From positions 2,852,001-2,916,000 of the forward strand of contig CP032931.1 in assembly GCA_003666485.1 (NCBI GenBank): a stretch of DNA of 64,000 nucleotides, given 5' to 3'. Both the position numbers and the translations under genes were made by a program. Below are positions 55,228-57,014 of the stretch, piece after piece. This DNA is from Levilactobacillus brevis (lineage in GTDB: Bacteria > Bacillota > Bacilli > Lactobacillales > Lactobacillaceae). Below the pieces are notes generated by a model. The model was not told where the DNA came from. It was given only the letters and a program-made list of their open reading frames with translations, and did no database searches. Within the stretch, counting starts at the first letter, position 1. Each line of letters starts with the position of its first letter.

Positions 55228-56789
55228 AGAAAGGAGGTGATCCAGCCGCAGGTTCTCCTACGGCTACCTTGTTACGACTTCACCCTAATCATCTGTCCCA
55301 CCTTAGACGGCTGACTCCCGAAGGTTATCTCACCGGCTTTGGGTGTTACAAACTCTCATGGTGTGACGGGCGGTGTGTACAAGGCCCGGGAACGTATTCA
55401 CCGCGGCATGCTGATCCGCGATTACTAGCGATTCCAACTTCATGTAGGCGAGTTGCAGCCTACAATCCGAACTGAGAACGGCTTTAAGAGATTAGCTTAG
55501 CCTCACGACTTCGCAACTCGTTGTACCGTCCATTGTAGCACGTGTGTAGCCCAGGTCATAAGGGGCATGATGATTTGACGTCATCCCCACCTTCCTCCGG
55601 TTTGTCACCGGCAGTCTCACCAGAGTGCCCAACTGAATGCTGGCAACTGATAATAAGGGTTGCGCTCGTTGCGGGACTTAACCCAACATCTCACGACACG
55701 AGCTGACGACAACCATGCACCACCTGTATCCATGTCCCCGAAGGGAACGCCTAATCTCTTAGGTTTGCATAGTATGTCAAGACCTGGTAAGGTTCTTCGC
55801 GTAGCTTCGAATTAAACCACATGCTCCACCGCTTGTGCGGGCCCCCGTCAATTCCTTTGAGTTTCAACCTTGCGGTCGTACTCCCCAGGCGGAGTGCTTA
55901 ATGCGTTAGCTGCGGCACTGAAGGGCGGAAACCCTCCAACACCTAGCACTCATCGTTTACGGCATGGACTACCAGGGTATCTAATCCTGTTCGCTACCCA
56001 TGCTTTCGAGCCTCAGCGTCAGTTACAGACTAGACAGCCGCCTTCGCCACTGGTGTTCTTCCATATATCTACGCATTCCACCGCTACACATGGAGTTCCA
56101 CTGTCCTCTTCTGCACTCAAGTTACCCAGTTTCCGATGCACTTCTCCGGTTAAGCCGAAGGCTTTCACATCAGACTTAAGAAACCGCCTGCGCTCGCTTT
56201 ACGCCCAATAAATCCGGACAACGCTTGCCACCTACGTATTACCGCGGCTGCTGGCACGTAGTTAGCCGTGGCTTTCTGGTTAAATACCGTCAACCCCTGA
56301 ACAGTTACTCTCAGAGGTGTTCTTCTTTAACAACAGAGTTTTACGAGCCGAAACCCTTCTTCACTCACGCGGCATTGCTCCATCAGACTTTCGTCCATTG
56401 TGGAAGATTCCCTACTGCTGCCTCCCGTAGGAGTTTGGGCCGTGTCTCAGTCCCAATGTGGCCGATTACCCTCTCAGGTCGGCTACGTATCATTGTCTTG
56501 GTGGGCCTTTACCTCACCAACTAACTAATACGCCGCGGGATCATCCAGAAGTGATAGCCGAAACCACCTTTCAAACAAGAACCATGCGGTTCTTGTTGTT
56601 ATACGGTATTAGCACCTGTTTCCAAGTGTTATCCCCTGCTTCTGGGCAGATTTCCCACGTGTTACTCACCAGTTCGCCACTCGCTTCATGGTTGAAATCA
56701 GTGCAAGCACGTCAATCAACGGAAGCTCGTTCGACTTGCATGTATTAGGCATGCCGCCAGCGTTCGTCCTGAGCCAGGATCAAACTCTC
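55228..56789 (-). rRNA. 16S ribosomal RNA
   Basis: About 1562 bases; the 3' end carries the anti-Shine-Dalgarno GGATCACCTCCTTTCT (minus strand), the inner 5' end GAGAGTTTGATCCTGG. The 5'-most 225 bases are repeated exactly upstream (56790-57014), so the transcript as read has two copies of the start. Resembles the L. brevis group. Confidence 0.93.
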
Positions 56790-57014
56790 CACCTTTCAAA
56801 CAAGAACCATGCGGTTCTTGTTGTTATACGGTATTAGCACCTGTTTCCAAGTGTTATCCCCTGCTTCTGGGCAGATTTCCCACGTGTTACTCACCAGTTC
56901 GCCACTCGCTTCATGGTTGAAATCAGTGCAAGCACGTCAATCAACGGAAGCTCGTTCGACTTGCATGTATTAGGCATGCCGCCAGCGTTCGTCCTGAGCC
57001 AGGATCAAACTCTC
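56564..57014 (-). repeat. Exact tandem duplication of the 16S 5' end, 225 bp x 2
   Basis: 56564-56788 and 56789-57013 are identical base for base. The outer copy keeps the natural leader (TATAAGAT before GAGAGTTTG); the inner copy follows directly on the V2 hairpin end GAAAGGTGG. Confidence 0.93.

Follow-up and report, generated by a model that had tools for sequence, protein, structure and literature searches.

The repeated 5' end of the 16S rRNA gene

The window analyzed here is a stretch of 64,000 nucleotides from the main contig (CP032931.1) of a Levilactobacillus brevis genome. It contains an rrn operon on the minus strand, with the following features in and around it:

26000-45900, no strand assigned: arm downstream of the operon
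51754-51826, minus: tRNA-Thr(GGT)
51901-52017, minus: 5S rRNA (Rfam)
52087-55005, minus: 23S rRNA (Rfam)
55161-55201, minus: trailer arm of an inverted repeat enclosing the 16S rRNA
55230-56795, minus: complete 16S rRNA (Rfam RF00177, 1609 bits), built on the proximal copy of the repeat
56564-56788, minus: proximal copy of the 225-base unit; it forms the 5' end of the complete 16S rRNA
56788-56789, minus: junction between the copies, reading AAAGGTGG and then AGAGTTTGATCC, with a one-base ambiguity
56789-57013, minus: distal (extra) copy of the unit, directly behind the natural leader
57136-57176, minus: leader arm of the enclosing inverted repeat (by its position, the processing stem)
57201-57408, minus: three sigma-70-like promoter sites upstream of the leader (57408-57380, 57320-57291, and 57229-57201)
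57532-58758, minus: MFS transporter gene (Pfam search), the upstream neighbor, which also adjoins rrn in the congeners G012, G014, and G022
58960-60501, plus: class II tRNA synthetase gene of the D/K/N group (Pfam search), which we read as lysS, the further upstream neighbor

The earlier note on this DNA had described an exact tandem duplication of the first 225 bases of the 16S rRNA gene, and this duplication is truly present in the deposited sequence. On the minus strand the unit begins with AGAGTTTGATCC, ends with AAAGGTGG, and occurs twice head to tail with a period of 225 and 225/225 identical positions; its TRF score of 902 is far beyond chance. The identical run is 226 bases long, because an additional C is shared at 56789/57014, which leaves the breakpoint ambiguous by one base. 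The universal primer 27F has its 5' end at the first or the second base of the unit. No N characters occur at the junction or anywhere else in the 528 kb of this genome that were scanned, the window included.

Rfam recognizes one complete 16S rRNA, followed by the 23S, the 5S, and the tRNA-Thr; the distal copy is additional sequence between the leader and the 16S. The arms of the enclosing inverted repeat are 80% complementary, and both copies lie between them, as the earlier note had stated for slightly different arm coordinates. Its statement that the natural leader and the rrn promoters are kept also held: the leader is intact, and three of the four promoter-like sites on the minus strand (shuffle mean 2.1) are located upstream of it. 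A real rRNA variant could have such an intact leader, promoters, and stem, but their presence is no argument for one.

The five rrn operons of the genome

The genome that contains the window (G000) has 3,096,874 bases in five contigs and a completeness of 99.99%. Its main contig, C1 (2,990,570 bases), starts with a gene that we read from its translation as dnaA. The other operons are labeled by their position on C1 in kb as B2324, C2783, D1640, and E634. A comparison of the rrn operons, which the earlier note had proposed as a check, found the repeat in one of the five; the other four are without it.

The operons fall into two haplotypes, each uniform from the 16S through the 5S: the window operon and B2324 on one side, and C2783, D1640, and E634 on the other. 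The haplotypes differ at 17 sites between the start of the 16S and the end of the 5S (about 4,890 bases), and, from the proximal copy onward, 4,889 bases of the window operon are the same as in B2324. Counted from the A of AGAGTTTG, the first two variable sites are at offsets 28 and 225:

56760, minus: 16S offset 28, C in the window operon and B2324, T in the other three
56563, minus: offset 225, the first base past the unit, T in the window operon and B2324, C in the other three

At offset 28, the T is found in three of the five 16S genes of this genome (L003, L004, and L005), and the other 16S copies compared have a C.

The repeat unit comprises offsets 0 to 224 and thus stops directly before the T/C variant at offset 225, the point at which an assembly path could continue in either of two ways. 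By our estimate, a random breakpoint with a one-base ambiguity would abut the variant site in about 1% of cases. At the opposite edge, offset 0, the operons do not diverge: their leaders are identical for another 51-160 bases. An origin of both edges at simple branches of an assembly graph was therefore discarded; it fits offset 225 only. The location of the offset 0 edge at the 5' end of 27F could be due to chance, or to 16S amplicon data used in finishing.

A scan for near-exact tandem repeats with periods of 60-3000, in which the identical run had to reach 0.9 of the period or more, covered 528,004 bases of the genome (8 kb of them counted twice) and detected the window's repeat alone. In the congeners, 450,003 bases were scanned and contained no such repeat. 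The idea of a genome-wide crop of similar scars was dropped on the same count.

Linkage of the operons to their flanks

We compared the flanks of the operons with those in three congeners (G012, G014, and G022), all of them near-complete, in 4 to 8 contigs each, and with six 16S genes each versus five in the window's genome. The names lysS, tyrS, mntH, and symporter reflect our reading of the genes, with Pfam searches on the lysS and MFS proteins only. In all three congeners, lysS and the MFS gene are located upstream of rrn, and the symporter gene is located behind that rrn, with one operon in between in G022 and two in G012 and G014. In the window's genome, the symporter gene is instead found behind E634, in the order tyrS-rrn-symporter. 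The upstream flank of E634 is the mntH-like/tyrS stretch, which precedes a different rrn operon in all three congeners.

The arm downstream of the window operon (26000-45900) matches the downstream side of tyrS-rrn in three of three congeners, and not that of lysS/MFS-rrn; the placement in G014 requires a circular C1. Positions 750-770 kb of the window's genome, on the symporter side of E634, match the region downstream of lysS-rrn, also in three of three (here it is G012 that requires a circular C1). The sequence from the 5S through the tRNA-Thr of the window has 93% identity over 270 columns to the stretch behind the tyrS-rrn of G014, about 190 of these 270 bases being the 5S and the tRNA themselves. 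The picture this close to the operon is less clear than for the larger arms. The 18-kb locus of G012 showed no tRNA-Thr behind tyrS-rrn; a tRNA-Thr of this genome is located behind the first lysS-side operon, between the two operons, and the tRNA-Thr alone is therefore no marker of the tyrS arm. In G022, the tRNA-Thr is found about 10 kb behind tyrS-rrn.

The upstream flanks of B2324, C2783, and D1640 each match one operon in all three congeners; downstream, the flanks of B2324 and C2783 were matched in three congeners and that of D1640 in G014. These three operons keep their flanks. What sets the window's genome apart from the congeners is therefore that exactly two operons, the repeat-bearing one among them, have swapped arms.

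G014 and G012 (L040 and L041) have a tandem pair of rrn operons about 8 kb apart where the homologous position in the window has a single operon. These pairs, together with the count of five versus six 16S genes, suggested that a tandem pair had collapsed at the window locus; given the single operon in G022, we treat such a collapse as possible and did not adopt it.

Chromosome geometry

A dif-like 28-mer was located using a dif consensus, with 2-3 mismatches, as the best match within the stretches examined rather than in whole genomes. It lies at or near the switch in GC skew in all four genomes and is identical in G000, G014, and G022. The dnaA gene is on the plus strand in all four, whereas the dif-like site is on the plus strand in the window's genome and on the minus strand in three of three congeners. 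With dnaA taken as the origin, the right arm makes up 0.697 of the chromosome in the window's genome, that is, the arms are divided about 70:30, as compared to 0.495 in G014, 0.524 in G022, and 0.512 in G012.

E634 on the plus strand and the window operon on the minus strand provide the inverted-repeat ends for an inversion between rrn operons. Reversal of the segment between each of the six inverted rrn pairs would give right arm fractions of 0.293, 0.446, 0.488, 0.629, 0.783, and 0.824; the value closest to half, 0.488, belongs to the segment between the window operon and E634. The same reversal would also restore the direction of the dif-like site and the linkage of the flanks. A segment of about 2.27 Mb that contains ter (C1 about 635 kb to 2,908 kb) thus appears inverted relative to the three congeners. 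The GC skew is consistent along the assembly, as is expected after a real and an assembled inversion alike.

Comparable repeats in other genomes

Two 27F sites 196-256 bases apart served as the search pattern. Within the family, one of 397 genomes contained it, which is the window's own. The absence of the pattern from the other 396 is weak evidence, because many of them are drafts without complete 16S genes; 14 of 40 relatives had no match to the 16S 5' end. Being present in one of five operons and in one of 397 family genomes, the repeat does not have the distribution of a heritable 16S variant of a lineage.

In a collection of 84,980 genomes, which may leave out the window's own record, the pattern was found at four loci in three genomes. 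In Nocardioides sp. Root190 (L052) and Vibrio sp. Isolate34 (L053 and L055), the leader and/or the 5' part of the 16S is likewise repeated, with the 27F sites at the same range of distances. At these three of the four loci, a single N is located at the junction of the repeated stretches, as when overlapping contigs are set end to end, and the leader is part of what is repeated; in contrast, the window has no N, and its unit starts at the 16S 5' end. The fourth locus (L054, from Paraburkholderia sacchari LMG 19450) is an exact 197-base repeat of the end of the leader and the 5' part of the 16S, without an N. This locus is a second candidate for a scar of the same type.

A literature search at the level of titles and the first lines of abstracts returned no published account of a partial duplication of the 16S 5' end. 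An extra sequence within an rRNA transcription unit that has to be removed or tolerated is also given by the intervening sequence in the 23S of Coxiella (PMC4990558). As that report describes it, the Coxiella sequence is a selfish element inside a helix, whereas in the window an exact rRNA copy precedes a complete 16S. Intervening sequences are unrelated sequences within a helix, and the extra 225 bases are instead the 16S 5' end.

Origin of the repeat

We infer that the 225-base duplication is, with high probability, a scar of the assembly and not a new kind of rRNA. Among the explanations offered by the earlier note (a real rRNA variant, a recent recombination, and an assembly error), the last is favored, and a real variant is retained at a low probability. 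Assembly error is favored because the window operon ends an arrangement that contradicts three congeners in its flanks, the balance of its arms, and the direction of dif, and because the repeat stops exactly where the rrn operons of this genome vary. The copies are exact, the operon is one of five members of a long multi-copy repeat, and its flanks are contradicted by three of three congeners.

Such a scar could have arisen if the chromosome was assembled from stretches joined at rrn operons. A stretch that ended inside the 5' part of the 16S would have been joined to one beginning with the 16S 5' end, and the 226 bases common to both would have been kept twice instead of once at the window operon. 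In this account, the assembler or finisher took a wrong path through two rrn operons, and the doubled bases remained at one of the joins. The large-scale link made there is probably wrong as well: in the cell, lysS/MFS-rrn would lead to the symporter arm, and tyrS-rrn to the arm that is now behind the window operon.

Errors of this type have precedents. One report (PMC5513972) gives rrn operons as main breakpoints of short-read assemblies and relies on PCR and Sanger sequencing for finishing. Of 1295 complete ESKAPE genomes, the socru study rated 88 as invalid and probably misassembled (PMC7478630), and three of four rrn operons were corrected in the published genome of Porphyromonas gingivalis TDC60 (PMC5771137). 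In both cases, rrn operons had been joined to wrong flanks in genomes marked as complete, as suspected here. The flags described for socru are the direction of the operons and missing or repeated fragments (PMC7478630); here, the direction is valid, and the balance of the arms, dif, and the flanks signal the problem. Duplicated or overlapping contig ends have been described for bacterial assemblies (Circlator, PMC4699355; Autocycler, PMC12460055). Untrimmed ends of this kind, which these descriptions give as frequent on circularizing long-read contigs, likewise present an identical stretch twice at a join; the window's repeat differs in being located within an rrn operon and not at the start of the contig, and in coinciding with a suspected wrong link at large scale (PMC4699355, PMC12460055).

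Several observations argue against a scar. The junction has no N, as is also the case at the comparable locus in P. sacchari; gap characters are, however, not required once gaps have been closed. The edge at offset 0 is not accounted for by a divergence of the operons, the overall quality of the assembly is good, and the 528 kb scanned contain no other near-exact repeat. A real, PCR-checked rearrangement of rrn was reported for P. gingivalis W83, one of about 30 strains (PMC5771137).

That the large inversion is artefactual as well is a separate step, which we consider probable but less certain than the scar. It is possible, though rather unlikely, that the repeat is a finishing artefact and the inversion nevertheless real, the strain having recombined between two oppositely oriented rrn operons; as regards the repeat, this is a sub-case of the assembly scar. 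The two operons are indeed oppositely oriented and nearly identical, the GC skew is consistent (although an assembled inversion predicts this too), and socru counts inversions of terminal or origin fragments as valid structures (PMC7478630). In P. gingivalis W83, two rrn loci are reorganized relative to other strains, as they are here (PMC5771137). That reorganization was checked by PCR (PMC5771137); the window's case includes a repeat in one of the two operons. A real inversion would leave the cell with a right arm of 0.697, compared to 0.495-0.524 in the three congeners, and the location of the repeat in one of the two breakpoint operons is explained at once by a wrong join. On balance, we regard it as unlikely, but well within consideration, that the inversion itself is real.

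The second copy might also have come from a 16S amplicon or Sanger sequence, primed with 27F, that was used or mixed in at finishing, which would again make it an artefact. The start of the unit at the 5' end of 27F, or one base before it, fits this source; we noticed the coincidence post hoc, its chance is by our estimate roughly 1 in 100-200, and 27F is not the position of the break at any of the four comparable loci. We consider an amplicon source improbable. Quite improbable, too, is a real and recent tandem duplication, produced by slippage or template switching at a one-base microhomology, with the extra 225-nt 5' domain trimmed or a poor operon tolerated beside four others. The base shared between the copies is compatible with slippage, the proximal copy completes an intact 16S model behind an intact leader, promoter-like sites, and enclosing stem, and no other scar was found in the 528 kb scanned. 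Yet instability is expected of a 225-base tandem repeat without a mismatch. The 397 family genomes, many of them drafts, hold no other copy, the unit has its edge at an intragenomic variant site, the repeat is located at a suspect join, and 47 base pairs between the copies in the computed fold would need to be resolved. Taken as a feature of the cell, the repeat is thus very improbable, and an assembly scar is the reading we retain.

Consequences for the rRNA precursor and the chromosome

If the repeat is an assembly scar, it marks a probable large misassembly, with about 2.27 Mb turned round, in a chromosome that is presented from dnaA. Studies of the species that deal with gene order, rrn copy number, or 16S structure would be led astray. 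The balance of the arms, the direction of dif, and the linkage of the flanks can expose errors that are invisible to the direction of the rRNA genes alone.

It is very unlikely that two 5' domains are present in the 16S precursor from one of the five rrn operons, with maturation selecting between them by removal of the distal one. Were this the case, the transcript would consist of the leader, the extra 225 nt, and the complete 16S inside an intact enclosing stem, that is, one of five 16S precursors would have a 225-nt 5' extension. Trimming to the proximal copy would be the likely course and would make the duplication near neutral; RNase J1 is the candidate 5' trimming enzyme in Firmicutes. 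Such an operon would offer a rare case in nature for studying how the 16S 5' end is set and matured while the small subunit is assembled. Folded by itself, the extra copy gives hairpins whose stability does not stand out from that of shuffled sequences (z -1.48; 17 of 200 as good). In the fold of the leader with both copies, the copies form the 47 base pairs between them noted above; the shorter stretch of a normal operon was also folded, and the energies are not comparable, since the lengths differ.

Other features of the window

On the minus strand, between the tRNA-Thr and a large surface-type protein (46474-49512), two adjacent genes encode Peptidase_C39_2-like proteins (49654-50499 and 50504-51451). 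Neither had a tblastn match in the congener rrn loci examined. The surface-type protein contains LRR and MucBP domains and a long repeat region rich in Gly/Ser/Asn/Asp. A dispersed repeat of about 140-190 bases occurs at 8130-8266, 23939-24075, 41515-41651, and 62558-62694; for the copy near 41507-41694, about 30 matches are listed in G014. A short dispersed repeat at 38492-38667 has many matches listed in G012 and several in G014 and G022.
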